From Magnetospirillum aberrantis SpK (GTDB lineage Bacteria > Pseudomonadota > Alphaproteobacteria > Rhodospirillales > Magnetospirillaceae): a DNA stretch of 64,000 bases. A program made the translations under genes and the position numbers. The stretch covers positions 62,001 to 126,000 of the forward strand of contig NZ_JAAIYP010000007.1 in NCBI RefSeq assembly GCF_011022235.1. Direction: 5' to 3'. The first letter of the stretch is position 1, and each line of letters opens with the position of its first letter. A model generated the notes under the pieces. The model ran no database searches, was not told the origin of the DNA, and saw only the letters and a program-made list of their open reading frames with translations. Positions 14,780 through 56,563 of this stretch are shown here, piece after piece.

Positions 14780-14781
14780 GT

Positions 14782-16071: not shown

Positions 16072-16784
16072 GGTCCGGTCATTCGTACTTTTCCGGTCAT
16101 GCCGGCCATCAATTCCGGGAAATGACCATTGATCTCGGCGACGATCTTCACGGAATGGCTGACCGAGTCCACACGGGCGCCGAACCGGGCGATCTTGGCC
16201 GGATAGGCTTTGCGGGTTTCATCGACCACGATCTCCACCGTCGTTCCGGCCTTCAGGTTCGGAGCCCAGCCCGAGGGAACGATGAACTCGGCCTCAAGGC
16301 TTGAATCGTCCAGGATATCGAGCAGCGGTTGGCCGGCCTGAACATATTGATGAGCCTGGGCCTTGCGTTCGATCACCCGTCCGGGATAGGGCGCGGTAAC
16401 CGTGCATTTGCTGACCACCGCCTGGGCGGAATTAAGCTTGGCCTGGGCGACGGCTGCGTCGGCGACCGCCTTTTCCACCTCCAGCGCACCGGCCGAATTC
16501 AGTTCCAACAGACGCTTGTGGGCGGCCTTGGACTTGTCGGCGGCAATCAGGATGGCACGGGCCTCGTCCAGTTGGGCACGCTGCAAGGTGCAGTCGAACG
16601 CCACCAGAAGCTGGCCGCCCTGGAACCGTTCACCATCCTTGACGGTGATCTTGTCGATCTTGGCCGGAACCTCGGCCGACAAGGTGGTGGTGCGGGTCGC
16701 CACCAATTGGGCGGGAATGGCGGTTTCCTGGGCCAAGGAAACCGCCGGAAACGTCAGCGCGACGGCAAGAACGACACCGCGCAT
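16068..16784 (-). CDS. Periplasmic adaptor (membrane fusion) protein, HlyD/RND type
   Basis: This short adaptor (238 residues) begins at an ATG at 16784 that overlaps the upstream stop as TGATG; the TTG one codon earlier is less likely. Residues 1-18 are a Sec signal peptide (MRGVVLAVALTFPAVSLA, then QE). The mature protein has the lipoyl half AEVPAKIDKITVKDGERFQGGQLLVAFD, an alpha-hairpin, then CTVTAPYPGRVIERKAQAHQYVQAGQPLLDI and a barrel region. It should dock on the TolC-like protein encoded just upstream. There is no lipobox and no membrane anchor, so it is probably a free periplasmic component. Confidence 0.82.
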   Translation of the reverse strand: MRGVVLAVALTFPAVSLAQETAIPAQLVATRTTTLSAEVPAKIDKITVKDGERFQGGQLLVAFDCTLQRAQLDEARAILIAADKSKAAHKRLLELNSAGALEVEKAVADAAVAQAKLNSAQAVVSKCTVTAPYPGRVIERKAQAHQYVQAGQPLLDILDDSSLEAEFIVPSGWAPNLKAGTTVEIVVDETRKAYPAKIARFGARVDSVSHSVKIVAEINGHFPELMAGMTGKVRMTGP

Positions 16785-18549: not shown

Positions 18550-21500
18550 TCATCCGTGACGAGCGACCGCGCGGGCGGCCGCCAACAATTGGGCCTGACG
18601 GACACCGGACAGTCGGCCCGCCATGCTCAATTCGCTTTGGAAACTCGGCTTGCCGGCTGGGGTTCCCATTTCCCCATCCGAAAACTTGATGGTCGTGTCT
18701 CCCAAACCCGGCGCCGCGTCGCCGCTTTGGCCGGAACCGCCTTCGCCCTGGGGCTGGGGTTGCCCCTCGCCCTGGGGTTGGCCCTCGCCCTCGCCCTGGC
18801 CCGGCTGTCCCTGCCCTTGCGGCACGCCGCCGCCGACATTGATGCGGATGGTGGCGATGGCCTCGCGGCCGGCCTGGTCGCGGGCGATGACGCGGATCAC
18901 GACCTCGCCGGTGACACCGGGGGGAGGTTGCCCCACGAAGGTCCCTGTCTGGGGATTGAAGGCCAGCCATCCGGGCAGCGCGGCACCGTCAAGCTGGCTG
19001 GCGCTCAATTGCACACGGGCGTCGGCCTGGGTCGAGGCGAAGGTGTCGCTCGGCAAGGTGAAGTTGACCTGTGGACCGGTGCTGTCCACCACCACCACCG
19101 GCTTGACCACCACCAAGGCGTCCCCCTGCCCGGCACCGGCCGAGACCGTCGGAACCTTGTAGCTGGTGTCGCCAGTGCCGGTCGTCGTCGAGGTCGTCGG
19201 AGCAATGGTGCCACCCTGGGTGCCGCCAGAGCTTTGTGTGGACGACGAGAAAGTCGTCCCCGAAGTCCCGGTGTCACCTGTCGTGCCGGTGGTATCCGTC
19301 GAGGTCTCGGTGTTGCGCAACACGGTGACCAGCGGCGCCACCGGGTCACTGGACACAGGCGGCGTGGGCGGCGGAGCGGTCGTGCCGGTATCCCCGCCCT
19401 GGGCCGGCGCGGTGCTGCCGTTGTTGCCCGAGCTTTCGGTGGTCGGCGTGGCGATGGACACCGTCACCGTCATGGCGGTCGAGGTCGCCGGACTGCCGGC
19501 GCCGTCAACGATCTGCACCGCGTAGCTGCCGCTGGCGTCGCCGGTCGATGTCAGCTTGAGGCTGCGTAACAGCGCCTCGATCCGGGCCGGAGTCGGGTTG
19601 GCGTCGTTGGCGAAGTCGATGCGCAGCGCGTTGCCGCCCTGGCCATCGCTGACGGCGTGAACCGTGCCGATGACCACCCCGTTCACCGTCACCGTCTCGC
19701 CGGCGGCGATGGTCGAATCGCCGCCCGACGCCGCCGTGGTGCCGTCAAGCGAGAAGCTGACCCCGCTCAGCGAACCGGTGCCGGTGATGGTGATGTACCC
19801 TTGGCGAAAATCGGTCGAATCGGCGTCGGTCACCGTGGCGTTGCCGCCACTGTCGAAATCCAGCGTCGTTCCGGGGGCGCCGCTGACCGTGTCGCCGCCA
19901 AGTCCGCCGACCACCGGCGCCGCGTTGGCCACCGCGACGGTGATCGAACCGCTGGCTGTCTTGGCCCCGCCCGTGCCCTGGCTGACCGTGGTGCCGTCCG
20001 AGAACGTCCAGTTGATCTGCACGTTGCCCGCCGTCTGGCCAGTGTCCGCGCGATAGGCGATCTGTTGGATCGCACTGTCGACCAAGGCGGCGGTCGCGTT
20101 GGCGTTGAAGGTCAGCACCAAGGTCCCGGCGGAATTGGTGGTCACCGTGCCGATGGTGGTGGTGCCGATCTTCAGTGCGCCACCTTCGGTCAAGGTCGCG
20201 GAATCCGCCGCCCCCAGCAAGGTTCCAGAGCCCGAGAACAGGTCGTTGGCGCTGGCGCCGCCGTTGCGGACCAGCGTCAAGGTGGCGCCGTTGTAGTTGT
20301 TGCCAGCGTCCAGTTCCACGTCGGCGACGGTGGCGTTGGCATCCAGCACCACCGCCGAACCGCCCTTGGTGAAGCTGGGCGTGGCGTCCAGCCCCGAGAA
20401 GCTGGGCGTGTCGTTGACCGCCGCCACGGTGACGGTGATCGAGCCGGTGGCGGTCTTGGCCCCGCCCGAGCCCTGGCTGACCGTGGTGCCGTCCGAGAAG
20501 GTGAAGTTGACGGTGATGGCCCCCGATTCGGTGTCGCTGGCGTTGGTGTAGGTGATCTGTTGCAGCACGCTGTCGACCAGCGCCGCCGTGGCGTTGGCGT
20601 TGAAGGTCAGCACCAGGGTCCCGGCGGAATTGGTGGTCACCGTGCCGATGGTGGTGGCGCCGACCGTCAGCGAGGCCCCCTCGGTCAACGCCCCCAGGGT
20701 GCCGGTATTGCCGAACGTGTCGTTGGCGTTGGCGCCGCCGTTGCGGGCCAGCGTCAGGGTGGCGCCGTTGTAATTGTCGGCGGCGTCCAGTTCCGCGTCG
20801 GACAAGGTGGCGTTGGCATCCAGGACGGTGGCGACGTTTTCGTTGGGATTGGGGGTGGCGTCCAGCCCGGCAAAGGCCGGCGCGTCGTTGACGGCGGCGA
20901 CGCTGACCGTCGCCGTCGCCGCCGAACCGGTGTGGCCGTCGGTGTCGCGCCCGGTGAAGGTGATGGTGCGATCCGTGGTGTTGGGCGCGTCGGAGGTATT
21001 GTTGAAAGTCACCTCTTTCATCAACGCCAGATACTCGGCCTTGGTGGCCAAACCCGACAGGGTGATCTGGGACGCCGAATCGTAGGTGATGGTGATGTTG
21101 GTGACGATGTCGCCACTGGTCCGCGAGCCAACCTTGATGACGTCGCCGCTCTGGGCGTTGGTGATCTGGATCACCAACTGGTTCAGATTGGCGCTGTCAC
21201 CATCGGCCACGGTGGCGTCGGCGGCGACGATGGACACCGCGCCGCCATCCTCGGTGAAGCTTGCGGTCTTGCCGGTTCCGGCGGCGGTGCCGTCCAGGTC
21301 GATGATCGGCGCGGCAACCACCGAAATGGTCGCGGTCGGCGGCGTGGCGTCGGCGGCGGTGCCGTCGTTGACCGTCACCGTCACCGTGCGGCCGCCGGCG
21401 GTGGTCGCCCCCGCCGCGTTGGTGTTCTGGTAAAGGATCGTTTTGATCACCGTTTCATAGGCCGCCTTGGTGGCCGAGCCCGACAAGGTGATCTGGGTCG

Positions 21501-24498
21501 CCGAATCATAGGTGATGGTGATGCCGTTGCTGGTGGCCGGGGTGCCGCTGATGGTCAGCGACTCGCCGGCGTCGGTGTTGCCGGTCAGGGTGATCACCGC
21601 GCTCGCCATGTTGGCGTTGTCCACGTCGGTGATGGTGAAGTCGCTGTCCACCACCGCGACCGCGCTGCCGCCGGCCGAGAACGCGGTGGTGAAGTTGCCC
21701 GACCCGGCACCCGAACTGTCATTGGCGTCGGCGACCGCGCTGGGGGCGTCGTTGACCGCGCTCACGCTCAGCGAGCCGCTGGCGGTGGTGTTGGAATAGG
21801 CGGTGGCGTTGCCGTTGGTTTGGGTGTCGGCATAGCGGGCGGTGGCCCCCGACGACGCCGTTCCCGAGCTCTGGTCCCAGGCGCGGACGGTGATGGTGGC
21901 GGTCTCGCCGTTCTGGCTGTCTGGCACATAGCGCACATAGGCGGTGGGCGACAGCAGCAGCGAATTGGCCGCCGACGGGGTCTGGCTGGCGGCGAAGCTG
22001 GTCCAGGTGCCGTCGCTGCCGTTGGTCGAATCGGTCGAGAACTGCCAGGTGCCGTTGCCGGTGGTGCCGCTGACGGCGATGCCCAGCGTGTCGCCGTCAA
22101 CGTCCGCCGAGGTCAGCCCGGCCAGGATAGTCGCCACCGTGACGCCGGTGGTGGTGGTGTCCTCGTTGGTGGTGGTGAAAGCATAGGTGCCCGAGGCCGT
22201 GGGCGCGTCGTTGACGGCGGTGATGTCAACGCTGACCGTGCCCAGGGTCACGGTGCCGCCGGCTCCACCGTCGTTGGCGGTGATGGTCAGGGAGGTGGCG
22301 GCGTTGCCGCTGGCGTTGCTGGCGCCCGTGTACTGGATGTTGCTGGCGGTGTTCAGGAAGGTGTCGATGTTGGCGGCCGTCCCGGTCAGCGTCAGCGTGC
22401 CGGTACCAGAACCGCCCACGGTGACGCTGCCACCCGAGGTGGCGGCCAGGCTGCCCGCCCCGGCCGCGATGGTCACGGTGATGTTGCCCGCGGTATCGAC
22501 GTCGGCCAAGGTGATGGCCGACAGATCGACGTTGCTGGCGGTATCCTCGGTCACCGTCACGCTGGCCGGCACGCCCGAGGCGGTGGGCACGTCGTCACCA
22601 CCGCTGAAGTTGACGGTATAGGTCTTACTGTCCGTCAGCGTCCCGTCGGACACCGTCACCGTGAAGGTGTCGGTGGGCGAGGTGCCCGAGGCGATGGCGT
22701 TGATGTCCGCGGCTTTCGGCACATAGGCGTAGGCGCCGCTGGTGCTGTTGACGTACAGCGTGCCGTAGGTTCCCTCCAAAGAGCGGTCGTACGCGGCAGC
22801 GAGATAGCTGCCGCTGAAGCCACCCGAAATGCCGTAGGTCTTGGTCGCCCCGGTGTCGGCGTCGGTGGCCGACAACGTGCCGGTGGTGTTGCTGAACGTG
22901 TCGGCGGCAGTGGTGTCGGTGTACGACCCGGCGCTGGGCGTGCTCAGTACCGGGGCGTCGTTGGTGCCGGTGATGGTGACATTCAAGACGCCGTGATCGC
23001 TGTTGGTGCCGTCGGTGGTGGTGTAGTTGAAGTAATCGTGCAGCGTGGCGCCCGCCGCCAGCGCCGCGACGGCGGGATTGGAATTGTCCACCGTGTAGGT
23101 GTAGGTGCCGTCGCTGTTGAGCGTCAGCGACCCATAGGTGCCTGCTAACGCCTGCCCCACGACTCCCGCCGGCCCCGCGCCTTCGGTGTTGCCGGTCCTG
23201 AACGACGACACCGAGGTCGCCAGGAAATCGTTGGTGAGAACGTTGCCGGTCGGGTTGGTGCTGGCCGTTCCGTCGCTGACCCCGCCCGCCTCGGTCGCGG
23301 CGGCGGTGTCGTTGCTGGCGGTGGTGGTGGTCGGAATATAGAAGTTGATCAGCGCGAGGTCGGTATAGGTCACCCCGGAAATGAAGATGTTGAAGATGTT
23401 GAAGCCGTCCTTGTCGTACACGACGGCCATCGTTCCATCCGTGCCGGTCGTCGCCGTGACGGACGCCAACCCTCCGCTTTCCTTGGCCGGCGTCACGATG
23501 ACCAGATTCACGCCACCGGGATCGGCACGAGCGCTATTGTCGTAGGAATAGAACTGGGCCTGAGCCTCGAACGTGAACGTCGAGACGTCGATGCCGTAAT
23601 CCGCGAACGAGAACCTGTCGGTCGCCGCCTGAAAATTCGTCACGATATTCGCGACGTCGGACAAACCGTCTTCCGCCGGCAGGGTATTGTTGCTGGCAGT
23701 CCCCGTGTCGAACCCACCGCCGGTGGCCACGACAAAGATGTCGGCACCGGCCGTACCGGCCGTCGTTCCCGGGTTCATGGTGACATTACCGAGCACGCTG
23801 CCGTAAGTGTCGATCGCCAGCGTCACGCCATCGACATCGCCGACCGTCGCCTCGAAGGACCAGTCGCCGCCCAGGATGGCCGCGCCCGTGGCGTCGTCCG
23901 ACGCCGCCACGTCGGCACCGGTGATGTCCGCCAGTCGGGCGACAAGGGCTTGGCCATTTTCGCCGGCGCCAACCGAACAACCGTAAAGCAACAGGTCGCC
24001 ATCGGCGGAAAGCGCGGCCCCCAAAGCCGTCAGATCGGCCTGGACCCCGGAATCGGCCAGGGTGGCGGCGGTGACAGTGTCGGTGCCGATGGTCAAACTG
24101 CCCTCGGTCCCGTGGGACAGGATATGGATGGCGTCGTAGCCGGAATGGGTTTCCGCCCATTGCGCCATCTGGTCCAAACCGCTTTCGCCGCCGTCGATCA
24201 GCACCACCTCGACGCCCGCGCGCACGCCGTCCACCAATGTCTGGTAACCGGCGAGGCTGGTATCGACGAAGGCGACTTCCTTCTTGCCGTCGTTCAACGC
24301 CGGATCGGCCTCGCGCACCGTGACCGGAGCGGGCGTGTCATGACCGGAATCCGAAGCAGAATCCGAGATGGAATCGCCGCTGTCGGCGGTCTGGTGAACC
24401 GCGTCGGCGACGGCCGCGCCGTCGAACATGAAGCGCGGCTCCAGGGCCAGGATGGTTGGCCGGATCATCGTCCGGGCCTTTTGCCGCTGGGCATTCAT
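18550..24498 (-). CDS. Giant LEPR/DUF4347 cadherin-like surface protein
   Basis: The 1982-residue protein starts at an ATG (24498) behind GGAGGAACG. The N-terminus is not a Sec signal but carries TILALEPRFMFDGAA (LEPR at residues 19-22), the N-terminal motif of a family of very long bacterial surface proteins. Residues about 72-230 match DUF4347 (VAFVDTSLAGYQTLVDGV, IHILSHGTEG, LLLYGCSVGAGENG). A long series of Thr/Gly/Asn-rich cadherin/Ig-like modules ending in AVNDAP or similar follows, then a CADG-type domain (LPGWLAFNPQTGTFVGQPP), a Gly/Gln/Glu/Pro linker and a conserved-looking C-terminal helix (FQSELSMAGRLSGVRQAQLL). I see no RTX nonapeptides. It heads the minus-strand operon with TolC, adaptors and the M50 fusion, its likely exporter. 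Adhesion or biofilm function is inferred. Confidence 0.85.
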   Translation of the reverse strand: MNAQRQKARTMIRPTILALEPRFMFDGAAVADAVHQTADSGDSISDSASDSGHDTPAPVTVREADPALNDGKKEVAFVDTSLAGYQTLVDGVRAGVEVVLIDGGESGLDQMAQWAETHSGYDAIHILSHGTEGSLTIGTDTVTAATLADSGVQADLTALGAALSADGDLLLYGCSVGAGENGQALVARLADITGADVAASDDATGAAILGGDWSFEATVGDVDGVTLAIDTYGSVLGNVTMNPGTTAGTAGADIFVVATGGGFDTGTASNNTLPAEDGLSDVANIVTNFQAATDRFSFADYGIDVSTFTFEAQAQFYSYDNSARADPGGVNLVIVTPAKESGGLASVTATTGTDGTMAVVYDKDGFNIFNIFISGVTYTDLALINFYIPTTTTASNDTAAATEAGGVSDGTASTNPTGNVLTNDFLATSVSSFRTGNTEGAGPAGVVGQALAGTYGSLTLNSDGTYTYTVDNSNPAVAALAAGATLHDYFNYTTTDGTNSDHGVLNVTITGTNDAPVLSTPSAGSYTDTTAADTFSNTTGTLSATDADTGATKTYGISGGFSGSYLAAAYDRSLEGTYGTLYVNSTSGAYAYVPKAADINAIASGTSPTDTFTVTVSDGTLTDSKTYTVNFSGGDDVPTASGVPASVTVTEDTASNVDLSAITLADVDTAGNITVTIAAGAGSLAATSGGSVTVGGSGTGTLTLTGTAANIDTFLNTASNIQYTGASNASGNAATSLTITANDGGAGGTVTLGTVSVDITAVNDAPTASGTYAFTTTNEDTTTTGVTVATILAGLTSADVDGDTLGIAVSGTTGNGTWQFSTDSTNGSDGTWTSFAASQTPSAANSLLLSPTAYVRYVPDSQNGETATITVRAWDQSSGTASSGATARYADTQTNGNATAYSNTTASGSLSVSAVNDAPSAVADANDSSGAGSGNFTTAFSAGGSAVAVVDSDFTITDVDNANMASAVITLTGNTDAGESLTISGTPATSNGITITYDSATQITLSGSATKAAYETVIKTILYQNTNAAGATTAGGRTVTVTVNDGTAADATPPTATISVVAAPIIDLDGTAAGTGKTASFTEDGGAVSIVAADATVADGDSANLNQLVIQITNAQSGDVIKVGSRTSGDIVTNITITYDSASQITLSGLATKAEYLALMKEVTFNNTSDAPNTTDRTITFTGRDTDGHTGSAATATVSVAAVNDAPAFAGLDATPNPNENVATVLDANATLSDAELDAADNYNGATLTLARNGGANANDTFGNTGTLGALTEGASLTVGATTIGTVTTNSAGTLVLTFNANATAALVDSVLQQITYTNASDTESGAITVNFTFSDGTTVSQGSGGAKTATGSITVTVAAVNDTPSFSGLDATPSFTKGGSAVVLDANATVADVELDAGNNYNGATLTLVRNGGASANDLFSGSGTLLGAADSATLTEGGALKIGTTTIGTVTTNSAGTLVLTFNANATAALVDSAIQQIAYRADTGQTAGNVQINWTFSDGTTVSQGTGGAKTASGSITVAVANAAPVVGGLGGDTVSGAPGTTLDFDSGGNATVTDADSTDFRQGYITITGTGSLSGVSFSLDGTTAASGGDSTIAAGETVTVNGVVIGTVHAVSDGQGGNALRIDFANDANPTPARIEALLRSLKLTSTGDASGSYAVQIVDGAGSPATSTAMTVTVSIATPTTESSGNNGSTAPAQGGDTGTTAPPPTPPVSSDPVAPLVTVLRNTETSTDTTGTTGDTGTSGTTFSSSTQSSGGTQGGTIAPTTSTTTGTGDTSYKVPTVSAGAGQGDALVVVKPVVVVDSTGPQVNFTLPSDTFASTQADARVQLSASQLDGAALPGWLAFNPQTGTFVGQPPPGVTGEVVIRVIARDQAGREAIATIRINVGGGVPQGQGQPGQGEGEGQPQGEGQPQPQGEGGSGQSGDAAPGLGDTTIKFSDGEMGTPAGKPSFQSELSMAGRLSGVRQAQLLAAARAVARHG
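19912..20880 (-). repeat. Two long direct repeats inside the giant surface protein gene
   Basis: Two adjacent segments of roughly 480 bp (about 19912-20400 and 20401-20880) encode near-duplicate modules: GLDATP, LDANATxxDxELDAxxNYNGATL, LTEG, TIGTVTTNSAGTLVLTFNAN, then TFSDGTTVSQGxGGAKTAxG. Long stretches of DNA are also nearly identical (for example 20108-20163 against 20605-20660), so the modules arose by recent duplication or conversion and could recombine. Confidence 0.75.
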
Positions 24499-24890
24499 GG
24501 GCGTTCCTCCGGCAACATCTCTCAACCTCAAAGAGGTACACTACACCGAAAACTCGTAATAGGTGATGATTTTGGAATCAAGGAACAATTTGAAACATTT
24601 ATGCACAGGTCGTCAGTGCCATTAGACTCATATCTAGCGCAATGCACATCTATTGGTAAACGGCAAACCGAGTTCACATAGACGCCATAAGGTTGCCCAG
24701 GAACCAGCATGATGGGCGGTAAACAGATCATTTTTCCTGTTTTGCGAGCATACACTTTTCATTTTAACAAATTTTGATACAGTAACTTCGCCTGATTGGC
24801 CACCATAGCGACTCAAGCAAGTAGCTTATCGCCATTTGGATGCCACGGATTGGAGTCGTTTGCATCGATAATTGTAAGGGGAGAGCAAGG
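24499..24890. promoter_or_regulatory. AT-rich divergent intergenic region
   Basis: This 392-bp spacer separates the giant surface protein gene (leftward) from the collar-protein cluster (rightward). It is visibly more AT-rich than its surroundings, with runs such as AACAAATTTTGATACAG. It should hold both promoters. I could not assign a clear -35/-10 pair or an operator. The local base composition shift may mark transferred DNA or a silencer-bound promoter region. Confidence 0.5.
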
Positions 24891-46329: not shown

Positions 46330-48342
46330 CTATTCCTCCGTGCCACCGTTCCACAAGCGCGCATCCGCCGGGATGGGGCGCAATTGGTGGCGGATGGCCA
46401 GACGATCCCGCCACCACGCGACGGGGTCGTGCCCGTTCAACGGATCGATGGCGTCGAAATCCAGTTCGGTGCCGATTTCCATGTAGGTTTCAAGGTTGCG
46501 CAGGTCGGGCCGCGGCAGGGTGCCGGCCTGGAACTCGTCCCACATCTGGCGATAAAGCTGTTCCAGGCGGCGAACCAACGTGTCCATGTCGAACAGCGCC
46601 CCGTGCTCGCTCAGGCGCTGGCGATAGGCCGCCAGGCGGCTGGGCTCGCGTCCCAACGCCACCGCGCGGTCCACGTATTCCTGGGCCGAGGTGCATACCA
46701 GATCGGGCAAACCGGCGGCACGCACCAGACTGCCGCACACCCGCGACGCGAACGACCGCCCGGACAGGGTCAGCATCGGCACCCCCATCCACAAAGCGTC
46801 CGAGGCGGTGGTGTGGGCACCATAGGGGCTGGTGTCGAGGAACAGGTCGGCCAACGGATAGCGGGCGAGATGGTGGGGATTGGCCAGCTTGCCGGCGAAG
46901 ACCAGGCGCTGGGGATCGATTCCACCTTGAACCGCCGCCTCCCGCAGACGGGTCTGCGCCCCCTCGGTGCCGCTCATCAGCCACAGAACGCTGCCCGGCA
47001 CCCGCCTCAGGATGTCCAGCCAGCGCTGGAAGGTGAAGCGGTTCACCTTGTGCAGACCGTTGAAGCAGCAATAGACCATGGCGTCGTCGGGCAACCCCAT
47101 CTCCGCCCGCGTCGGCGCGATGGCGGCCACCGCCCGCTTGCGGTCGTTGGGCTGATAGCACGGCAGCCGCAACACCTTTTCCGAATAGAACACCTCGTCG
47201 CCTTCGGGAATGATCCAGTCGTCGGCGATGATGTAATGGTGATAGGGGCTGCCGGTGGTGCCGGGATAGCCCAGCCAGTTGACGATCACCGGTGCCGGAC
47301 GCAACGCCACCAGCTTGGTCCGGCCATCGCGGGTATAGCCGTTGAGGTCGACCAGGATGTGGATGCCGTCGTCGGCGATACGCCGCGCCGCCTCGGCGTC
47401 GCTCAGGCCGGTGACGTCGATCCAATGGTCCACCGCGTTCTGGAAACGCTCCTTGAGCGGATCGCTTCCCGGAATACCGGTGTAATAGGCGAAAACCTCG
47501 ACCGCCGCCTTGTCGTGCAGTTCGAACAGTTCGGCGCACAAATAGCCCACCGCGTGTTCGCGCAGATCCGAGGACAGGTAGCCGATGCGCAGCCGCCCGC
47601 CGGGAGCACCCTCGCGCGCCGCCCAATAGGAGCGGATCAGTCCGTCACCGGGAAGCCCGACGTCGCGGCGGTTGTAGTTCCACGCCGCCGCCAGATGCAG
47701 CACCGGATCGTCGGCATAGGCCCCCATGGACAAGGGCGACATACCCGACACCAACGTCTTGTGGCTGACACGGTCCCACGGGGTCAGCACCGGCCATTCG
47801 CACTGGCGCTGGCGCAGGGCGATGAAGTGCTGCAACGCCTCGGGCTGATCGGGAGTAAGGTCCAGGCTTTGCCGCAGCATGTTCTCGGCCGCGTCGTCCT
47901 GGCCGGCGTCCTCCATCACCCGCGCGATCTGGTTGAGCGCGGTAATCTTGTGGCTGATGGCGGTTCCCGTCACCGCCGCCAGACGGTCCACCGCCGCCGC
48001 CCATTGCCGCACCGCCGCCTCGGCACCGCCCTTGCGTTCGAGCAGACGGCCCAGATTGATGCTGGCCGGGGTGAAATCGGGGTTGATCTCAAGCGCACGT
48101 TCCAGGCATTGCACCGCCCGCTCGATCTCGCCGCAATCGCTCAGCGTGACCGACAGGTTGAACAGAACCGCGTACAGCAGCGGGTCGTCGCCGTTGTGTT
48201 CGACCCAGCAATCGTACAGCGCCACCACCGCGCCCGCCCCGTGCGAGCCCCGGACCTGGTCCACGGCCCGGATCAGGTCAAGCACCCCAAGCGTGCGCTG
48301 ACGCGCCTGGGCCATGCTCGAGGCGAGGAAATCCTGGTTCAT
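46330..48342 (-). CDS. TPR-containing GT41 (O-GlcNAc-transferase-like) glycosyltransferase
   Basis: The 670-residue protein has TPR-like helices in the N-terminal part (about 54-122: AVLFNLSVTLSDCGEIERAVQCLERALEINPDFTPASINLGRLLE). A GT41 catalytic region, collinear with eukaryotic OGT, follows: RIGYLSSDLREHAVGYL (H263), VDLNGYTRDGR, PVIVNWLGYPGTTG, YCCFNGLHKVNRFTFQRW (K432, the UDP-binding Lys position), LADLFLDTSPYGAHTTASDALWMGVPMLTLSG (H510). GT41 enzymes transfer GlcNAc or hexose to Ser/Thr or Asn of proteins. The ATG follows GGAG and lies 13 nt after the giant octad-repeat gene, so the two are surely co-expressed and that protein is the obvious acceptor candidate. Confidence 0.9.
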   Translation of the reverse strand: MNQDFLASSMAQARQRTLGVLDLIRAVDQVRGSHGAGAVVALYDCWVEHNGDDPLLYAVLFNLSVTLSDCGEIERAVQCLERALEINPDFTPASINLGRLLERKGGAEAAVRQWAAAVDRLAAVTGTAISHKITALNQIARVMEDAGQDDAAENMLRQSLDLTPDQPEALQHFIALRQRQCEWPVLTPWDRVSHKTLVSGMSPLSMGAYADDPVLHLAAAWNYNRRDVGLPGDGLIRSYWAAREGAPGGRLRIGYLSSDLREHAVGYLCAELFELHDKAAVEVFAYYTGIPGSDPLKERFQNAVDHWIDVTGLSDAEAARRIADDGIHILVDLNGYTRDGRTKLVALRPAPVIVNWLGYPGTTGSPYHHYIIADDWIIPEGDEVFYSEKVLRLPCYQPNDRKRAVAAIAPTRAEMGLPDDAMVYCCFNGLHKVNRFTFQRWLDILRRVPGSVLWLMSGTEGAQTRLREAAVQGGIDPQRLVFAGKLANPHHLARYPLADLFLDTSPYGAHTTASDALWMGVPMLTLSGRSFASRVCGSLVRAAGLPDLVCTSAQEYVDRAVALGREPSRLAAYRQRLSEHGALFDMDTLVRRLEQLYRQMWDEFQAGTLPRPDLRNLETYMEIGTELDFDAIDPLNGHDPVAWWRDRLAIRHQLRPIPADARLWNGGTEE

Positions 48343-48355
48343 CCATCAAACTCCA

Positions 48356-51300
48356 TCAAGCCAGCGCCGAATCGATCGCCGCCAATTGGGCCGGGCTGAG
48401 CGCGGCCAGCTGGGTTTCGGTCAAGGCGTCGATCTGCGCCGCGGTCAGTGCCTCGAACTGGGTGGTCGCCAAGGCGGCGACCACGTCGGGGGACAAGGCC
48501 GCAATGGTGGTGGTGGTCAACCCGGACAATTGGGTGGCCGACAACGCGCCGATCCCGGCGTTGGTGAGCGAGCCGATCTGGGTCGGGGTCAACGCCCCCA
48601 CCTGGCTGGAGCTCAAGGCCGCCAACTGGGTCAGGGTCAATGCCTGCAACTGGGTGCCGCTCAGGTTGGACACCTGGGTCGTGGTCAAGGTGCCAAGCTG
48701 ACCGTTGTCCAACACGGCGATCTGTTCCGAGGTCAGGGCGCGGATCTGCACGCGCCCCAACGCCGTCAGTTGGGTGTCGGTCAAGGCGCGGATCTGAGTG
48801 GTGCCCAGGCCGGAAATCTGGGTGGTGGTCAGCGCCAGCATCTGGGTGGCGGAAAGTGCTTCGAACTGGCTTTCGCTGAGCGACGCCAATTGCGTCGCCG
48901 TCAGGCCATTGACCGAGGTGGTGGACAAGGACGCCACCTGGACCGGCGACAGCGCCGCCAACTGAGTGCTGTTGAGCGATTGCAACGCGGTCGAGGTCAA
49001 CCCGGCGATGCCGCCGGCCGAAAGCGAGCTGATCTGGGTGGTGGTCAGACCCGCGACCTGGGTGGTGGTCAGCGCCGCCAGACCGGTGCTGGACAATCCG
49101 CCCAACTGGGTGGCGGTCAAGGTGCCGATCAGGGTCTGGGTCAGACCGGCCACCTGATCGGCGGTCAACGAGCCGATCTGGGTGGTGGTCAGCGCCTGCA
49201 ACTGGGTCGCGGTCAACGCCGCGATCTGGGTGTCGCTGAGCCCGCTGATGCCGGTGGTGGACAAGGACGCCATCTGGGTGGCGGTCAGCGCCCGCAACTG
49301 GGTGGTGCTGAGCGCCGCCATGCCGGTGCTGGACATGCCGCCCAACTGGGTGGCGGTCAACGCCGCCAGCGCGGTGTTGGCCAAGGCCGAAATCTGCGTG
49401 GTCGCCAAGCTGCCCATCTGGGTCGCGGTCAGGCCGCGAAGCTGGGTGGTGACCAGGGCGGAAATCTGGCTTTCCGACAGCGCCGCCAGCGCGTCCGTGG
49501 ACAACGCCCCCATCTGGGTGGATTGCAGACCGCGCAATTGCGTGGTGGTCAACGCCGCGATCTGGGCCTCGGTCAGGCCGCTCAGGCCGGTGGTGGACAA
49601 GCCGGCCAGTTGCAGGGTGCTCAGGCGCCCGATCTGGGTGGTGGTCAGCGCCTCGACGTCGTCGGCGCCCAACCCGGACAATTGGGTCGAGGTCAGCACC
49701 GCCAAATCGGTGGTGCTCATGCTTTGCAACTGCGTCGCGGTCAGTTCGGCCATCTGGGTGGCGGACAGGCCGCGCAACTGCGTGGTGGTCAGGGCGTCGA
49801 ACTGAGTGGCGGTCAGGCTGGAAATGGCGGTGGTGCTGAGCGAGCCGACCTGGGTCGAGTTGAACGCCCGAAGCTGGGTGGTGCTGAGCGCCGCCACCTG
49901 ATCCTCGCCCATGCCCGCCAATTGGGTGGTGGACAGCGCGGAGATCTGGGCGTTGGTCAGACCCGCGATCTGGGTCGGGGTCAGGGCGTTGAGACCGGTG
50001 GACGACAAGGCCCCCAACTGGGTCGAGGTCAACGCCCCCAACTCGGTCGCGGTCAGGCCACTGACCTGGGTGGTGGTCAGCGCCGCCAGTTGGGTGACGC
50101 TCAGCCCGCGAATCTGGGTGGTGGTCAGCGCCGCCAACTGCGTCTCGTTCAGGCCGGTGACGCCGTCGGCGGAAAGCGCCGCGATCTGCGACGACGACAT
50201 CCGCCCCAACTGGGTGGTGCTGAGCGCCGCCACATGCTCGGCACTCAGGCCGGACAATTGCTCGGTGGTCAACGCGCCGATCTGGGTGGTGGTCAAGCCG
50301 GCGATGGCCGAGGTGCTCAGCGCCTGCATCAGATAGGCATCCAGCCCCCGCAACTGGGTCGAGGTCAGCGAGGCGATCTGGCCGGCGGTCAGCGCCCCCA
50401 CTTCCTCGAAGCCGAGGTTGTAGATCTGAGTGCTGGTCAGGCCGTCCAACTGAGTGGCGGAAAGCGCCGCCATCTGGGTTTCGTTCAGGCCCAGGATGGC
50501 GGTGGCGGTCAAGGCGCCGATCTGGCTGGAGGTCAGGGCCGCAAGCTGGCTCGTCCCCATTTCTTCCAATTGGGTGGCCTGAAGGCCGGACGCCTGGGTA
50601 ATGGACAGGCTGGCGATCTGGCTGGGATCGAAGGCGTTCAACGCCTCGGCGGTCAACGCGCCGATCTGGGCCGATCCCAGGCCGCGGACCTGGGTGGTGG
50701 AAAGCGCCTGCACCTGGGTCGCGGAAAGACCGCCGATGCCGGTGGCCGACAACGCGCCGACCTGGGTCGAACTGAGCGCGGCGATCTGGTCCGTGGTCAG
50801 CGCCCCGGTCTGGGTGGTGTCCAGACCCGTCAACTGGGTGGTGGTCAGCGCCGATATCTGGGTGGTGCTGAGCGCCGCCATGTGGGTTTCGTTCAGCAGC
50901 CCCAACTGGCTGGGAGTCAACGCCCGGATCTGGCTGGTGGAAAGGTCCGCCATCTGGGTGACGGTCAGCCCGTTCAGCACCGTCTCGACCAGCCCGGCCA
51001 TCTGGGTCGAGGTCAGCGCCGCCAATTGCGTATCGTCCAGCACCCGCACCTGTTCGGTGCGCAGACCGCTGAGCGCGGTGGTCGACAACGCCTTGATCTG
51101 GGTGGTGGTCAACGCCGCGATCTGGCTGGTGGACAACGCGTCGATCTGTTCGGCGGTCAGGCCGGCCAATTGGCTGCTGGACAGGGCCGAGAACGCGGTG
51201 CTGGTCATGCCGCTGATCTGGGTCGGCGTCAAGGCGCCGATCAGCGCCGGCGTCAACGCCTTGAGCTGGGTCGAGGTCAGTTCGGCGATCTGGGTTTCGG

Positions 51301-54300
51301 TCAGGCCGCTGATGGCGTCACCCGACAGGGCGGCCATCTGGGACGAGGTCAGGACGCCCAGTTGCAGCGCGGTCAACGCCTCGACCTGGGTGGTGGCCAG
51401 ACCGGACAATTGGGTGGTCGACAACACCGAGATGGCGGTGGTGGTCAGGCCGGCCAGTTGCTTGGCCTCGAACGCCGCCAGTTGGGTCGGGGTCAGGGCG
51501 CGAATTTGGCTGGTGGTCATGGCCTCGACCTGGGTCGAGCTGAGACCGGTGATCTGTTCGCCGTCCAGGCTGGCGACCTGGACATTGGTCAGCGCCCGCA
51601 ACTGGGTGGTGGCCAAGGCGGCGATCTGGGCGTTGCTGAGACCGTCCAGGGCGTCGGTGGTCAATGCCTGCATCTGGCTGGACGACAGCACCGCCAATTG
51701 GCTGGTCTCAAGGGAATGCAGCCCGGTGGCGGTCAGACCGCGCAACTGGGTCGAGGTCAGCAACGCGATCTGGTCAGTGCCCAACCCGTCCAACCCGGCG
51801 TCGGACAACGCCGCCAGTTGGGTGCTGCTCAAGGCCCGGATCTGGGCGTCGGACAATGCCGCCACCTGTTCGCTGTTCAGACCATCGACACTGTCGGAGG
51901 ACAGCGCGGCGATCTGGGCGGTGGACAGCGCCGCCACCTGGGTCACGCTCAGCCATTCCACCTGTTCCTGGGTCAGACCGGCAACCTGGGTGGTGGTCAG
52001 CGCCGCCAGTTGGGTGCCCGACAGCATCCCGAACTGGTTCTCGCTCAGACCGGAAATGGCGGTTTGCGACAGGGCGCGAAGCTGGGTGGCGGTCAAGCCG
52101 CCGATGGCGGTGGTGGTCAACGCCCGCAACTGGGTCTCGGTCAGTCCGCCCAGTTGGGTAACGGTCAACGCCCCCAGGCCGCTGGCGGTGAGCCCGCCGA
52201 TCTGTTCGGCGCTGAGCGCCGCCACCTGGGTCTGGCTCCAGGCGTGCAACTGGGTGGTGGAAAGCGCACCGATCTGGCTGGCGGTCAGGCCGGCCACGGC
52301 GGACGAGTTCAACGCCGCGACCTGGCTGGCCGACAGCGTCGCGACCTGGGTGGTGTCCAGACGCGAGACGGTCTCGGCGCTCAGGGTGCCGATCTGGGTG
52401 GTGGTCAGCGCCGACACCTGGCTTTCCGACAACCCGCGCAATTGTTCGGTGCTCATGGCCGCGAACTGGGTGGACGACAACGCCCGCAACTGGTTGACCG
52501 AAAGCGAGGCGATGGCCGAAGCGTCAAGACCGCCGATCTGGTCCGCGGTCAAGGCCGCCATTTGGGTCGAAGTCAGCGCCGCCAACTGGGTCGCCGCCAG
52601 CGAATCGATCTGTTCCTCGGAAAGGGCGGCGATGGCCGCGTTGGACAGCGCGGCGACCTGGCTGGACGACAGCGCCGCCAATTGGGTGGTGGTCATCTCG
52701 CCGACCCGCTCGGGAGACAAGGCCGCGATCTGCGAATTGCTCAGCCGCGCCAGCGCGGTTTCGTCCAGGCCGGAAACCGCGTCGAGCGCGCCGATCTGGG
52801 CGGTGCTGAGGGCGCGAATCTGGGGCGCGGTCAAAGCCGCCACCTGGGTAGTGTCGAGACCGGCGATGGCGCTGGTGGACAAAGACGCCACCTGAGTAAC
52901 CGCCAGGGACTGCACCTGGGTCGCCGACAGCCCGGAAACCTGTTCCTCGCTCAGAAGCGCCATCTGGGTCGTGGTCAACGCCCCCAACTGGGTGTCGGTC
53001 AACATGCCGAGCTGGGTGCTGGACAACCCCCGGATCTGGACGCCGCTCAATGCCCGGATCTGGGTGGCGCTGAAGCTGGTCAGGTCTTCCGCGCCCAGGC
53101 TGCCCAATTGCTCGGCGCTCAGGCCCGCCAACTGGGTCAGGGTGATGGCGGCAAGCTGGGTGGCGTCGAAAGCGGCGATCTGTTCGGCGCTCAGGCCTTT
53201 GAGGGCGGTCGACGACAAGGCGCGGATCTGGCTGGTGTTCAGGCTGGCGATCTGGGTTTCGCTCAGCGCCGACAATTGGGTCGAATTCAGGCCGCCGATC
53301 TGGGTCTGACTGAACTGAGCCAGACTTTCGGGCGTCAGCGTTTCCACCACCTCGACCGGCAAGGCGGCCATTTGGGTGCTGGTCAACGCCCGCAACTGGG
53401 TCGAGCCCAAAGCCGCCATCTGTTCAATGCTGATCCCCGCCAGGGACGCGCTTGACAACGCCGCGACCTGACTGGCCGACAGCGCCGCCAATTGGGCCGT
53501 TCCCAATTGCGACAATGTGGTCGAGCTCAGACCGCGCAATTGGGTGGTGGTCAACATGGCCATGTCGCCGACGTCCAGCATGGCCAATTGTTCTTCGTTC
53601 AACGCCGACAACTGACCGGCGGACAAGGCCCGCAACTGGCTGCTGGTCAGGGCGTCAAGCTGGCTGGTCTCGAGCCCGCTCATCTGGTCGGCCGACAGCG
53701 CCGACAACTGGCTGGAATTCAGCGCGGCGACCTGGGTGGCGCTCAGCGCGTCCATCTGTTCGTCCGACAGCGCGGCCACGGCGGCGGTGTTCAAGGCCGC
53801 GATCTGGGACGTGGTGAAGGCGGCGATCTGGCTTTGGCTCAGCCCCTGGATGTTGGTCGCGCTCAGTCCCTTGACCTGGATGGCGCTCAGCGACGACAGT
53901 TGGGTCGGCGACAGCGCGGCCACGGCGCTGGCGGACAACGCCCCCAGCTTGGTCATGGTGAAGGCCTGAAGCAGGGTCTGGGAAATTCCCGCCATCTGCG
54001 TGTCGGTCAGACCAGCCAATTGCACGATGTTGAGCGCGCTCAGATGCGACAGCGACAGGGAGTTGAACTGGGCGGTGCTCAGGGTGCCAAGCTGGGTCGA
54101 GGTCAAATGGGCGATCTGGGTGACCGACAACCCCGCCACGGCGGTCTCGGTCAGGCCGCCCAGGCCGAATTCCGACAACGCCCCGATCTGGGTGGCGGTC
54201 AGACCGCGCAATTGGGTCGAGGTCAGGGCCGACGTCTGTTCGGCCGACAACGCGGCGATGACCGTCCGCGACAGCCCGCCCACCTGCTGCGAGCTCAGCG

Positions 54301-56563
54301 CCTGCATCTGGGTGGAAGAGAGCGCCGCCAACTGGTACTCGCTCAACCCGCCCATGGCGGTGACCGACAACGCCTGCAACTGGGTCGAATTCAACGACCG
54401 CAATTGCTCGTCGCCAAGATAGCCGGCCTGGGTGCTGGTCAAGGCCGCCAACTGGGTGGTGCCCAGCCGGCCAAGCAAGGTGGCGGACAGGGCCGAGACC
54501 TGCATCTCGCTCAGCGCCGCCATCTGGGTGGTGGTCAGGGCGCGAAGCTGGGTGTCGGAAAGCGATTCCAGTTGTTCGACGCTCAGCCCTTGAATCTGCC
54601 CGATGTTGAAACCGGCGATCTGGGTCTGGGTCAGGGCCGCCAGTTGATCGGAGGTCAAGGCCCCCATCTGGTTGGCCGCCAGCCCCTTGAGTTGGGTCGA
54701 GGTCAGACCGGCCAGTTGCTCGCTGGTCAGTTCGTCGATCCCCAGGGCGCGAACCTGAAGGGCGGAAAGACCGGCCAGTTGCGTCCGGCTCAGCGCCGCG
54801 ACCTGGGTGGCTGTCAGCCCTTCCAGTTGGGTGGTGGTCAACCCGCCCACTTGTGTCGAGGTCAGCGCCGTCATCTGGGTCGAGGACAGGTCGGACAACT
54901 GGACCGCATCCAACGCCGCCAGCGCCGTGGTGGAAAGCGACCGCAACTGCTCGCTGCTCAGCGCGCCCAGTTGTTCGGCGGTCAGGCCCGCCGCCATGGT
55001 CGAGGTCACACCCTTGATCTGGGCGGCACTCAGGCCGGCCACCTGTTCGGCGGTCAGGGCGTAGACCTGATCGGCGGTCAGGGCGCCAACCTGAAGCGAG
55101 GTCAAGGCCGCCAGTTGCGACGTGGCAAGCGACCGCACCTGTTCCTGGGTCAAGCCGGGAATGGCCACCAGCGACAAGGACGCCATCTGCGCGGCACTGA
55201 ACGCCCCCAGTTGGGTGTCGGACAGCGCCGCCATCTGGGTCGAGCGCAAGCCCTTGATCTGGGTCGCCGACAGAACCGAAATCTGGGTTTCCGACAGCAC
55301 CGCCAACTGTTCCTGGGTCAGGCTGGCTATGGCGGTGGCCGACAACCCCTTGATCTGGGTCAGGGTCAGCCCCGCCACTTCCTCGACCGTGAAGGTGCGG
55401 ATCTGATAGATGCCCAACGCCCCCATCTGGGTCGCCGACAGGCCGTCGATCTGGGTGGCGTCCAGGGATTCGACCGCCTCGGTCGCCAGGGTGCGGACCT
55501 GAGTGGTGCTGAGAGCGGCGATCTGGGTGGTGGTCAGGCCATCCGCCTGGGTCTCGTCGATCGAACCGATGGCCGACGTGGTCAGATAGGGCACCTGTTC
55601 GGCGGTAAAAGCCGAAATCTGGGTGCTGGAAAGCGAATCCACCATGGTCTGCGTCAGCATGGCCACCTGGGTCGTGGTCAGCGCCGCAATCTGAGCGGAG
55701 GTGAAGGCGCCGATCGCCGTTCCCGACAACAGCTTCATCTGGCTGGTGGTCAGACCGGCAAGCTGACTGGCGGCCAGACTGGCGACCTGGGTGGATTGCA
55801 GCGCATAGATGCCGGCGTTGCTGATGGCACCGATCTGGGTGGCGCTCAGCGCCGCCAATTGCTCTTGCGTCAGCGCACGTACGCCGGTGGTGGTCAATCC
55901 CTTGATCTGGGCCGGGGTCATGGCCCGGACCTGGGTCACGGTCAGGGCCGCCACGCGGTCGCCGTCCAGGGCGGCGAAATCGGCCGCGACCAGACCGGCC
56001 ATCTGGGTGGTGGTCAAGGACGCCAGGGTTTCGGGCTGCAAGCTGCCGACCTGCGCCGAGGTCAGGGCCGACAATTGGGTCGAGGCCAACCCCGCCACCT
56101 GGGTCGAGACCAACGCAGCCATCTGATCGTTGCCCAGCGCCGCCAATTGAGTGGAACTGAGCGCCGCCAACTGGGTCGAGGTCAAGACCTGGATCTGCGA
56201 CACGCTGAAGCCGGCCAACTCGGTTTCGGTCAGTCCCTTCATCTGAAGGGTGCTGAAAACGGCGATGTCTTCGACCCCGAAGGCGTCGATCTGGGCGTCC
56301 AGCAGCACCGACAATTGCAGGGGACTGAACGAAACGATCTGGGCGGCGCTCAGCGCGTCGATCTGCGCCGGTGTCAGCGCGGTCATCTGGCTGGTGGTCA
56401 GCGCCCCGATCTGGGTCGCATCCAGCACCTCGATTTGCGCGACCGAAAACGCGCTGACCTGCGTAGTATCAAGAGAGGCGATATCCGACGCGCTGAGCGA
56501 CTGGATGCTGGTCAGGCTCAATTGAGCGATCTGCGCGGCGCTCAGAGAGGAGATTGACGACAT
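48356..56563 (-). CDS. Giant Ser/Thr-rich octad-repeat protein
   Basis: The protein has 2735 residues, nearly all in one 8-residue repeat: L-[ST]-x-[TSA]-Q-[ILVM]-x-[AGS], as in LTTTQIAA, LSATQIGA, LDATQIDG, about 340 copies. It starts MSSISSLSAAQIAQLS (ATG 56563 after AAAGG) with no signal peptide and ends LSPAQLAAIDSALA with no recognisable sorting motif. Only two phase breaks were noticed (LGIDE, near 54730, and LDAVSG, near 52780). No cysteine and almost no aromatic residues occur. The hydrophobic positions 1 and 6 and a helix-capping [ST]-x-x-[QE] pattern suggest a regular solenoid or filament. The function is unknown. The gene is directly followed by a GT41 glycosyltransferase gene, and most octads offer two or three Ser/Thr. 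Confidence 0.88.
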   Translation of the reverse strand: MSSISSLSAAQIAQLSLTSIQSLSASDIASLDTTQVSAFSVAQIEVLDATQIGALTTSQMTALTPAQIDALSAAQIVSFSPLQLSVLLDAQIDAFGVEDIAVFSTLQMKGLTETELAGFSVSQIQVLTSTQLAALSSTQLAALGNDQMAALVSTQVAGLASTQLSALTSAQVGSLQPETLASLTTTQMAGLVAADFAALDGDRVAALTVTQVRAMTPAQIKGLTTTGVRALTQEQLAALSATQIGAISNAGIYALQSTQVASLAASQLAGLTTSQMKLLSGTAIGAFTSAQIAALTTTQVAMLTQTMVDSLSSTQISAFTAEQVPYLTTSAIGSIDETQADGLTTTQIAALSTTQVRTLATEAVESLDATQIDGLSATQMGALGIYQIRTFTVEEVAGLTLTQIKGLSATAIASLTQEQLAVLSETQISVLSATQIKGLRSTQMAALSDTQLGAFSAAQMASLSLVAIPGLTQEQVRSLATSQLAALTSLQVGALTADQVYALTAEQVAGLSAAQIKGVTSTMAAGLTAEQLGALSSEQLRSLSTTALAALDAVQLSDLSSTQMTALTSTQVGGLTTTQLEGLTATQVAALSRTQLAGLSALQVRALGIDELTSEQLAGLTSTQLKGLAANQMGALTSDQLAALTQTQIAGFNIGQIQGLSVEQLESLSDTQLRALTTTQMAALSEMQVSALSATLLGRLGTTQLAALTSTQAGYLGDEQLRSLNSTQLQALSVTAMGGLSEYQLAALSSTQMQALSSQQVGGLSRTVIAALSAEQTSALTSTQLRGLTATQIGALSEFGLGGLTETAVAGLSVTQIAHLTSTQLGTLSTAQFNSLSLSHLSALNIVQLAGLTDTQMAGISQTLLQAFTMTKLGALSASAVAALSPTQLSSLSAIQVKGLSATNIQGLSQSQIAAFTTSQIAALNTAAVAALSDEQMDALSATQVAALNSSQLSALSADQMSGLETSQLDALTSSQLRALSAGQLSALNEEQLAMLDVGDMAMLTTTQLRGLSSTTLSQLGTAQLAALSASQVAALSSASLAGISIEQMAALGSTQLRALTSTQMAALPVEVVETLTPESLAQFSQTQIGGLNSTQLSALSETQIASLNTSQIRALSSTALKGLSAEQIAAFDATQLAAITLTQLAGLSAEQLGSLGAEDLTSFSATQIRALSGVQIRGLSSTQLGMLTDTQLGALTTTQMALLSEEQVSGLSATQVQSLAVTQVASLSTSAIAGLDTTQVAALTAPQIRALSTAQIGALDAVSGLDETALARLSNSQIAALSPERVGEMTTTQLAALSSSQVAALSNAAIAALSEEQIDSLAATQLAALTSTQMAALTADQIGGLDASAIASLSVNQLRALSSTQFAAMSTEQLRGLSESQVSALTTTQIGTLSAETVSRLDTTQVATLSASQVAALNSSAVAGLTASQIGALSTTQLHAWSQTQVAALSAEQIGGLTASGLGALTVTQLGGLTETQLRALTTTAIGGLTATQLRALSQTAISGLSENQFGMLSGTQLAALTTTQVAGLTQEQVEWLSVTQVAALSTAQIAALSSDSVDGLNSEQVAALSDAQIRALSSTQLAALSDAGLDGLGTDQIALLTSTQLRGLTATGLHSLETSQLAVLSSSQMQALTTDALDGLSNAQIAALATTQLRALTNVQVASLDGEQITGLSSTQVEAMTTSQIRALTPTQLAAFEAKQLAGLTTTAISVLSTTQLSGLATTQVEALTALQLGVLTSSQMAALSGDAISGLTETQIAELTSTQLKALTPALIGALTPTQISGMTSTAFSALSSSQLAGLTAEQIDALSTSQIAALTTTQIKALSTTALSGLRTEQVRVLDDTQLAALTSTQMAGLVETVLNGLTVTQMADLSTSQIRALTPSQLGLLNETHMAALSTTQISALTTTQLTGLDTTQTGALTTDQIAALSSTQVGALSATGIGGLSATQVQALSTTQVRGLGSAQIGALTAEALNAFDPSQIASLSITQASGLQATQLEEMGTSQLAALTSSQIGALTATAILGLNETQMAALSATQLDGLTSTQIYNLGFEEVGALTAGQIASLTSTQLRGLDAYLMQALSTSAIAGLTTTQIGALTTEQLSGLSAEHVAALSTTQLGRMSSSQIAALSADGVTGLNETQLAALTTTQIRGLSVTQLAALTTTQVSGLTATELGALTSTQLGALSSTGLNALTPTQIAGLTNAQISALSTTQLAGMGEDQVAALSTTQLRAFNSTQVGSLSTTAISSLTATQFDALTTTQLRGLSATQMAELTATQLQSMSTTDLAVLTSTQLSGLGADDVEALTTTQIGRLSTLQLAGLSTTGLSGLTEAQIAALTTTQLRGLQSTQMGALSTDALAALSESQISALVTTQLRGLTATQMGSLATTQISALANTALAALTATQLGGMSSTGMAALSTTQLRALTATQMASLSTTGISGLSDTQIAALTATQLQALTTTQIGSLTADQVAGLTQTLIGTLTATQLGGLSSTGLAALTTTQVAGLTTTQISSLSAGGIAGLTSTALQSLNSTQLAALSPVQVASLSTTSVNGLTATQLASLSESQFEALSATQMLALTTTQISGLGTTQIRALTDTQLTALGRVQIRALTSEQIAVLDNGQLGTLTTTQVSNLSGTQLQALTLTQLAALSSSQVGALTPTQIGSLTNAGIGALSATQLSGLTTTTIAALSPDVVAALATTQFEALTAAQIDALTETQLAALSPAQLAAIDSALA
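48400..56550 (-). repeat. 24-bp coding repeat array (about 340 units)
   Basis: At the DNA level the octads appear as degenerate 24-bp units; on the plus strand the recurring words are CTGGGTGGTGGTCAGCGCCG-like blocks. Units are diverged at synonymous and variable positions, so this is an old, selected array rather than a recent expansion, although local near-identical pairs occur. Confidence 0.85.

Follow-up and report, generated by a model that had tools for sequence, protein, structure and literature searches.

The window, a stretch of 64,000 nucleotides from Magnetospirillum aberrantis SpK, carries two adjacent genes on its minus strand. The first (48356..56563) encodes a giant octad-repeat protein of 2735 aa, which was assigned to the ALTTAQ family (PF20080) and characterized by Pfam comparison, segmentation and fold prediction. 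The second (46330..48342) encodes a 670-aa GT41 glycosyltransferase composed of an N-terminal TPR region and a GT-B catalytic region. The intergenic spacer between them is 13 nt (48343..48355, minus strand), consistent with a single operon for the array and the GT41 gene. A preliminary description of this DNA had given the coordinates, the strand, the protein length and the gap correctly; its observation of an octad array followed by a GT41 enzyme was confirmed as a whole, and its interpretation was partly supported. A promoter scan found no promoter, and shuffled sequences gave more terminator-like sites than the DNA itself. Two long plus-strand frames lie opposite the array, one of 1713 aa (48314-53455) and one of 1021 aa (53492-56557). 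Since the minus-strand frame is conserved and matches a known family, we did not accept the plus-strand frames as real genes and took them as mirrors of the repetitive coding strand; they are probably products of the codon usage of the repeat.

Segmentation resolved the array protein into 339 octads, close to the roughly 340 given previously, and 23 residues outside octads, namely 6 at each terminus and two linkers of 5 (residues 607-611) and 6 (1260-1265) residues. The octad consensus is L-[ST]-x-[TSA]-Q-[LIVM]-x-[AG], with Leu at position 1 in 304/339 octads, Ser/Thr at position 2 in 263/339 and at position 4 in 223/339, Gln at position 5 in 256/339, and Leu/Ile/Val/Met at position 6 in 325/339. 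Ser/Thr made up 0.43 of the residues at position 3 and 0.66 of those at position 4, and 250 of the 339 octads had at least one Ser/Thr at these two positions (370 such residues altogether). As many as 328 octads are distinct, indicating that the array was not recently amplified. Chance periodicity was rejected: the L/hydrophobic pattern, scored by the best fixed-frame count, was observed 187 times, compared with at most 63 times in 200 shuffles that kept the composition. The array was recognized as ALTTAQ_rpt (PF20080) by Pfam with 1118 bits over 99 stretches (cut-off, 26.4 bits), and no mention of ALTTAQ or PF20080 was found in the open-access literature searched. Its top match in the PDB sequence search was 9zem 'HeliScrew4' (120 residues, E 2.9e-15), an entry known here by its name and aligned sequence, on which the literature searched yielded no paper. 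The Pfam matches to CAAP1, LRR_EndoS and Sigma70_r4_2, although they reached the cut-offs, and the LRR matches in the PDB sequence search were put down to repeat composition.

The conservation of the array was assessed with its closest relatives. The array of the same genus (L147) aligned with that of the window over 2735 residues free of gaps, with 70.6% identity, and the substitutions at the three codon positions numbered 743, 426 and 965, respectively. Judged from this alignment, the array behaves as a constrained protein of fixed length. The two arrays of 339 octads differ at 29% of their residues but show no indel, an uncommon situation among tandem repeats and one that suggests selection for length. 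For L148 and L151 (52% identity to the window), each gap spanned 1-3 residues, the two linkers accounting for two of these gaps, and octads were neither gained nor lost; in arrays further off, the gaps were mostly multiples of 8. The Ser/Thr class was kept at 89%, 71%, 87%, 34% and 40% for positions 2, 3, 4, 7 and 8, respectively, values to be read as suggestive because the base Ser/Thr frequencies at these positions are unequal (0.77, 0.39, 0.65, 0.14 and 0.13).

A 25-octad segment of the array (49769..50368, minus strand; residues 2066-2265) was modelled by AlphaFold2. The model had a pLDDT of 94.9 and a pTM of 0.85, with an alignment made of 13 segments of the same protein, that is, of internal repeats and no independent homologues, and it showed 25 helices for 25 octads. 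Each octad is predicted to form one short helix from approximately position 3 to position 7, and the array is thus predicted to be an alpha-solenoid "screw". Position 2 precedes the helix, so that Ser/Thr there fits an N-cap and would, on this prediction, have a structural role in capping the helix. Positions 3 and 4 form the first helix turn in the model, and they are probably exposed, given that charged residues are tolerated there. The earlier statement that most octads expose two or three Ser/Thr residues held for the count (224/339), but not for the exposure of position 2, the usual helix N-cap. On the model, positions 3 and 4 are likelier acceptors than the cap residue. Foldseek matches of the segment model to mesothelin (E 2e-4, TM 0.3) and to viral proteins were weak, and no conclusion was drawn from them; uncultured phage proteins were also among the weak matches (best E 3e-6).

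The partner enzyme was recognized as a GT41 member (PF13844) with 281 bits (Pfam cut-off, 25). Several TPR models exceeded their cut-offs at residues ~59-172, and this N-terminal region was helical in the predicted structure. The model of the enzyme (pLDDT 76.8, pTM 0.77) matched the OGT structures of fly, human and Xanthomonas (E ~1e-30); the TM-scores with XcOGT (2xgo) were 0.68/0.83, and TtOGT (5djs) was also matched. K432 and H510-T511-T512 aligned with Lys 852 and His-Thr-Thr 930-932 of 7yeh_B, which were taken as K842 and residues 920-922 of hOGT with a numbering offset of 10. In the published TtOGT study, K842 of hOGT is described as the catalytic Lys and His-Thr-Thr 920-922 as the oxyanion hole (PMC4683255). 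By alignment, the catalytic Lys and oxyanion-hole residues of OGT-type GT41 enzymes are present in the window enzyme, and the H263, K432 and H510 motifs noted beforehand were all found. Among array-linked GT41s, H263 and K432 were conserved in 54/54 and H510 in 49/54. Since unlinked GT41s also kept H263 (52/58) and K432 (56/58), these residues mark competence, not specificity.

HMW1C, which is also a GT41 enzyme and has an adjacent surface-protein substrate as described for Haemophilus (PMC3983070), raises the question of whether the window enzyme is an N-glycosyltransferase of that kind acting on the few Asn residues of the array. We regard this as highly improbable. The HMW1C-like model (NCBIfam NGTferase) gave 32.8 bits against a cut-off of 1000, the N-terminal region is TPR rather than AAD, and Asn, as the preliminary description had remarked, is rare in the array (36 of 2735 residues). 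The preference for O- over N-linkage stated there is thus favoured by the TPR/OGT-type enzyme, with glycosylation itself being a proposal. As to the sugar, the donors of related enzymes are described as varied, with fucose for SPINDLY and hexose for HMW1C.

Does the GT41 accompany the array elsewhere? The genomes surveyed are samples that include several close relatives. In the order to which the window belongs, PF20080 arrays were found in 18/199 genomes, and a window-type GT41, defined by at least 48% identity, near full length and at least 670 bits, was found in 17 of these 18, the exception being G858 (Fisher p ~2e-22 for co-occurrence in the 199 genomes). One fragment aside, the next match below the window-type enzymes dropped to 406 bits and 41% identity. 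More distant GT41s were commoner, with a match at E<=1e-70 in 65/199 genomes. In all 17 genomes with both, the GT41 directly follows an array and shares its strand; the gap measures 13 nt for the window pair and, taken between stop-bounded frames, 0-192 nt for the 16 remaining genomes. In G697, a 444-residue GT41 frame lies at a contig edge, and an array was absent from the 6 kb examined. Among 46 GT41 loci of named genomes, an octad frame was found directly upstream in 19/19 with at least 50% identity and in one of the other 27 (L036, 8 kb off); these 27 include a relative cut by the contig end (L039) and some short contigs. The prediction that a GT41 gene would lie beside octad arrays beyond chance was therefore borne out.

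The linkage was also followed on plasmids. Of 55 plasmid records matching the GT41, 16 were examined: the top 14 minus H2, an apparent duplicate of G175 contig C3 (L084), together with the controls H15, H23 and H26. For enzymes of at least 40% identity, an array was present within 5.2 kb in 13/13 examined and within 0.9 kb in 12, cases that are not all independent since plasmids H9 and H10 share proteins; near the controls with less than 40% identity, an array was found in 0/3. In L177, the array and the GT41 are separated by a type I secretion pair. The plasmid hosts with the pair were Rhizobium, Pseudorhizobium, Shinella, Pseudoroseomonas and Pseudomonas. On plasmids the two genes are arranged in tandem in either order or divergently, and the linkage persists. 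That the pair is kept across many distantly related bacteria suggests that the job of the enzyme is sugar-coating the repeat protein.

Several features of individual pairs were observed along the way. On Pseudomonas plasmids (L188, L189), one array piece is annotated as 'heme utilization protein', and given these plasmids, the pair may have been transferred from one class to another. In L179 (1520-5530), from a plasmid of Pseudorhizobium flavum, the array and GT41 are closely preceded by hook and flagellin genes. A tandem pair of GT41 genes was present beside the array in L031, L084, L153, L155, L158, L171 and L177, perhaps reflecting two sugars or two site preferences. Family f175 has giant frames of 2462-3781 aa with GT41 matches (L117 4251-15596, L126 5380-13800, L122 and L124); L117 and L126 contain more than one GT41 region each, making them GT41 concatemers, and L117 adjoins an array. 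At G537:C1:2816852-2832184 (L097, L098), a 5446-aa frame contains an array whose Ser/Thr stand at position 3 and seldom at position 4, and a GT41 follows directly. The genome of the laboratory species Caulobacter vibrioides, which served as a control, has matches to both PF20080 and PF13844, as a genome-wide presence.

A FastTree tree of 113 GT41 segments, 55 of them labelled as linked, was midpoint rooted. The linked enzymes fell into one large subtree and a sister subtree from f175, with L138_116 elsewhere. The unlinked tips within or at the base of the large subtree were L028_76 and L039, the latter at a contig end. The unlinked label of L117 and L118 in the tree arises only because the array sits in the neighbouring stretches L100 and L109; for L126, an array was absent from its 20 kb. 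The second GT41 of the window genome (L086) was placed outside the linked subtrees. The claim that the GT41 is dedicated to the octad array was thus strongly supported by linkage and phylogeny and, to a lesser degree, by the position-specific Ser/Thr enrichment described below.

Starting from the arrays, the picture was more varied. The array was linked in 17/18 array genomes of the order of the window; arrays without a GT41 exist nonetheless. In family f150, arrays occurred in 17/121 genomes, and a GT41 was found within 6 kb of the array in 11/17; no linked array was seen among those examined from G557, G592, G596, G621, G659 and G661. In the class sample, PF20080 was detected in 4/190 genomes, linked in G000 and G175 and unlinked in G040 and G141. 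The phylum sample had PF20080 in 20/398 genomes, GT41 in 129/398, and GT41 in 18 of the 20 array genomes, a co-occurrence that carries little weight because 15 of the 20 came from one family (f175). For several f175 arrays, a GT41 was absent from the stretch examined. Among 38 array genomes (17 from f150, 17 from the order and 4 others), 31 contained a GT41 and 7 contained none, the arrays of three of these 7 (G141, G367 and G596) being below the octad criterion. The ten genes neighbouring three unlinked f150 arrays and the G858 array were housekeeping or unassigned. Octad arrays do not need a GT41, and GT41s of the linked clade are nearly always found with an array.

Ser/Thr content by octad position was then compared between arrays with a GT41 within 6 kb (linked) and unlinked arrays. 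Of 85 arrays or pieces scored, L083, L110 and L145 were dropped for Q at position 5 below 0.4, and 20 of the remaining 82 were omitted as ambiguous (contig or region edges, or a GT41 at 6-15 kb); 19 named loci and the plasmid arrays were left out. The comparison comprised 43 linked (41 genomes) and 19 unlinked (16 genomes) arrays, numbers that give no rate since some stretches were chosen for an already known GT41. The median Ser/Thr fraction of linked and unlinked arrays was 0.78 and 0.78 at position 2 (p 0.88), 0.73 and 0.32 at position 3 (p 2.9e-5), and 0.69 and 0.32 at position 4 (p 0.0099), with related samples and p-values that ignore kinship. No difference was found at positions 7 and 8, and Pro at position 3 showed the opposite trend to Ser/Thr. 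Nine genomes, three of them from one genus, had both kinds of array; Ser/Thr was higher in the linked array in 9/9 at position 3 (p 0.004), 6/9 at position 4 (p 0.07) and 6/9 at position 2 (p 0.36). Four unlinked arrays from the order of the window (L159, L163, L173 and L174), whose genomes do contain a window-type GT41, had Ser/Thr fractions of 0.31-0.41 (position 3) and 0.54-0.77 (position 4). They resemble the window array, so the enrichment does not single it out, and our confidence in the pair as a glycosylation unit was slightly lowered because four, rather than two, unlinked relatives are this similar. The position 3 fraction reached 0.52 (G621) and 0.65 (G661) in arrays from genomes free of GT41 (no match at E<=1e-5). 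Linked arrays of f150 are poor in Ser/Thr at position 4 and often have an acid there. As a group, then, linked arrays tend to carry more Ser/Thr, clearly so at position 3, which is no proof for the window array.

The difference between linked and unlinked arrays may reflect ancestry. If the enrichment were structural or phylogenetic, with the linked arrays being no more than subfamilies whose first turns are polar, the GT41 could modify cell-surface glycans or an unrelated protein, a reading that we consider unlikely. It would accommodate the high position 3 values in two arrays of GT41-free genomes, the high position 4 values in unlinked arrays of the order, and the fit of position 2 to a helix cap; what it leaves aside is that position 3 was higher in the linked array of every one of the nine genomes, with positions 2, 7 and 8 inconsistent, and that the linkage was kept over Alpha- and Gammaproteobacteria despite varied gene orders.

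Known systems provide precedents for a GT41 with its own protein. In Haemophilus influenzae, a GT41-family enzyme gene adjoins that of a large secreted protein modified at many sites, as reported for HMW1A/HMW1C (PMC3983070, PMC3012730, PMC2877744). The window pair is alike in that a GT41-family enzyme is encoded next to a large protein, whose modification is here proposed. By the published descriptions, HMW1C has an AAD domain, modifies Asn and acts on a TpsA adhesin, whereas the window enzyme has a TPR domain and an octad helical array as its partner; no TpsB gene was found among the neighbours scanned near the window pair, and some relatives of the pair have type I secretion, unlike the two-partner secretion of HMW1A. 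A likeness in architecture is seen with FlmG of Caulobacter, described as a soluble TPR plus GT-B enzyme that O-glycosylates an export substrate in the cytoplasm with specificity residing in the TPR (PMC7591256). The window GT41 shares the TPR and GT-B domains; the substrate and donor reported for FlmG are flagellin and pseudaminic acid, whereas the partner in the window is a giant repeat array. HMW1C/HMW1 and FlmG/flagellin, as described, are precedents for soluble GT-B enzymes that act on proteins destined for export (PMC3983070, PMC7591256). XcOGT and TtOGT resemble the window enzyme in having the GT41 fold with TPRs, and the authors of the TtOGT study reported that this enzyme showed no detectable activity towards proteins in their in vitro assays (PMC4683255). 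Unlike TtOGT, the window enzyme has an obvious partner gene. To our knowledge, bacterial OGT-like enzymes have few known natural substrates, and the flagellin modified by FlmG is one exception. The serine-rich repeat glycoprotein (SRRP) system combines accessory Sec export with the GtfA/GtfB enzymes, whereas the window enzyme is a GT41.

The FlmG precedent also bears on a different role for the array, namely that of a scaffold or partner which would hold the GT41 or bring it to other targets, for instance flagellin, without itself being the substrate; the two genes would then be linked because their products form a complex. The TPR domain of FlmG is described as binding flagellins (PMC7591256), flagellin genes lie near the pair in Pseudorhizobium, some arrays have no GT41, and unlinked arrays from the order of the window are nearly equal in Ser/Thr. 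Binding alone would not explain why, over the whole set, linked and unlinked arrays differ in first-turn Ser/Thr but agree at positions 2, 7 and 8, and a flagellin gene was not found among the neighbours scanned beside the window pair; we hold this role to be rather unlikely.

As modification of the array followed by export is proposed, the surroundings of the pair were inspected for secretion and sugar-related genes; the neighbour survey is partial, consisting of Pfam scans of selected neighbours. No signal peptide was evident by eye at the array start, and the genes scanned beside the window pair included neither an ABC transporter nor an HlyD gene, so that the test for type I secretion was negative at this locus. 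The window genome has two HlyB-type genes above the cut-off, away from the pair. In relatives, an array, an ABC transporter, HlyD and a GT41 were found together by HMM in L084, L109/L118, L114, L115, L119, L120, L121, L162 and L177, and a tenth locus with type I secretion genes, array and GT41 was recognized by annotation (L189). Beside the 19 unlinked arrays, no transporter match of like strength was found in the stretches examined; an HlyD/CusB-like gene adjoins one of them (L082). Sugar-related genes beside the L033 pair encode an epimerase/dehydratase and an FkbM methyltransferase with TPRs, and those beside other relatives include an annotated UDP-glucuronic acid decarboxylase, a UDP-galactopyranose mutase and a GT61. 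These genes suggest that some species may add further sugars to the first one; no such genes were found among the neighbours scanned near the window pair.

Taken together, the array and the GT41 probably form a dedicated protein-glycosylation unit in which Ser/Thr at positions 3 and/or 4 are modified before export. The array would fold into a long helical screw of 339 mini-helices, as predicted by the model, and the soluble GT41 would recognize it, probably through its TPR region. In the cytoplasm, Ser/Thr at position 3, at position 4 or at both positions of an octad would receive a sugar; these residues would occupy the first turn of each mini-helix beside the N-cap. By analogy, the glycosylated array would then be exported, most likely via a type I secretion system acting in trans, to yield a cell-surface or released rod that bears a regular glycan spiral and may serve as a coat or an adhesin. 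From the preliminary description, the pairing of array and enzyme is retained, the filament or coat with periodic sugars envisaged there would be a possible product, and the candidate acceptor sites are moved to positions 3/4.

Neither the pairing of array and GT41 nor a helical octad acceptor was found in the open-access literature, among the matches listed. The families and the principle of a surface protein with a dedicated GT41 are known; the pairing and the helical octad acceptor would appear to be new. The clade of GT41s that have a likely substrate next door extends over Alphaproteobacteria and other families and includes enzymes encoded on Rhizobiaceae and Pseudomonas plasmids. As the repeat is short and modular, the acceptor site, the donor and the recognition can be tested with small constructs, and the octad array offers a scaffold for regularly spaced sugars. 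A broader reading, which we put forward tentatively as possible, is that widespread secreted rods of near-fixed length, built from hundreds of mini-helices, are glycosylated at the N-terminal turn of each mini-helix by a dedicated OGT-like enzyme. Evenly spaced sugars would then spiral about the protein screw to form a protein-templated glycan lattice, and a large clade of bacterial OGT homologues would have its natural substrate in these rods.

Elsewhere in the window, a frame at 18550-24531 (minus strand) encodes a 1993-aa DUF4347/cadherin protein. At 12689-18534 (minus strand) lie three HlyD-matching frames, one of which also matches an M50 peptidase, and an OEP (TolC-like) gene; the 1993-aa protein is likely a secreted adhesin with its own export cluster. 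Two tandem CobN/Mg-chelatase-like genes are located at 2002-9458 (plus strand), followed by a chelatase AAA/VWA gene at 9439-11352.
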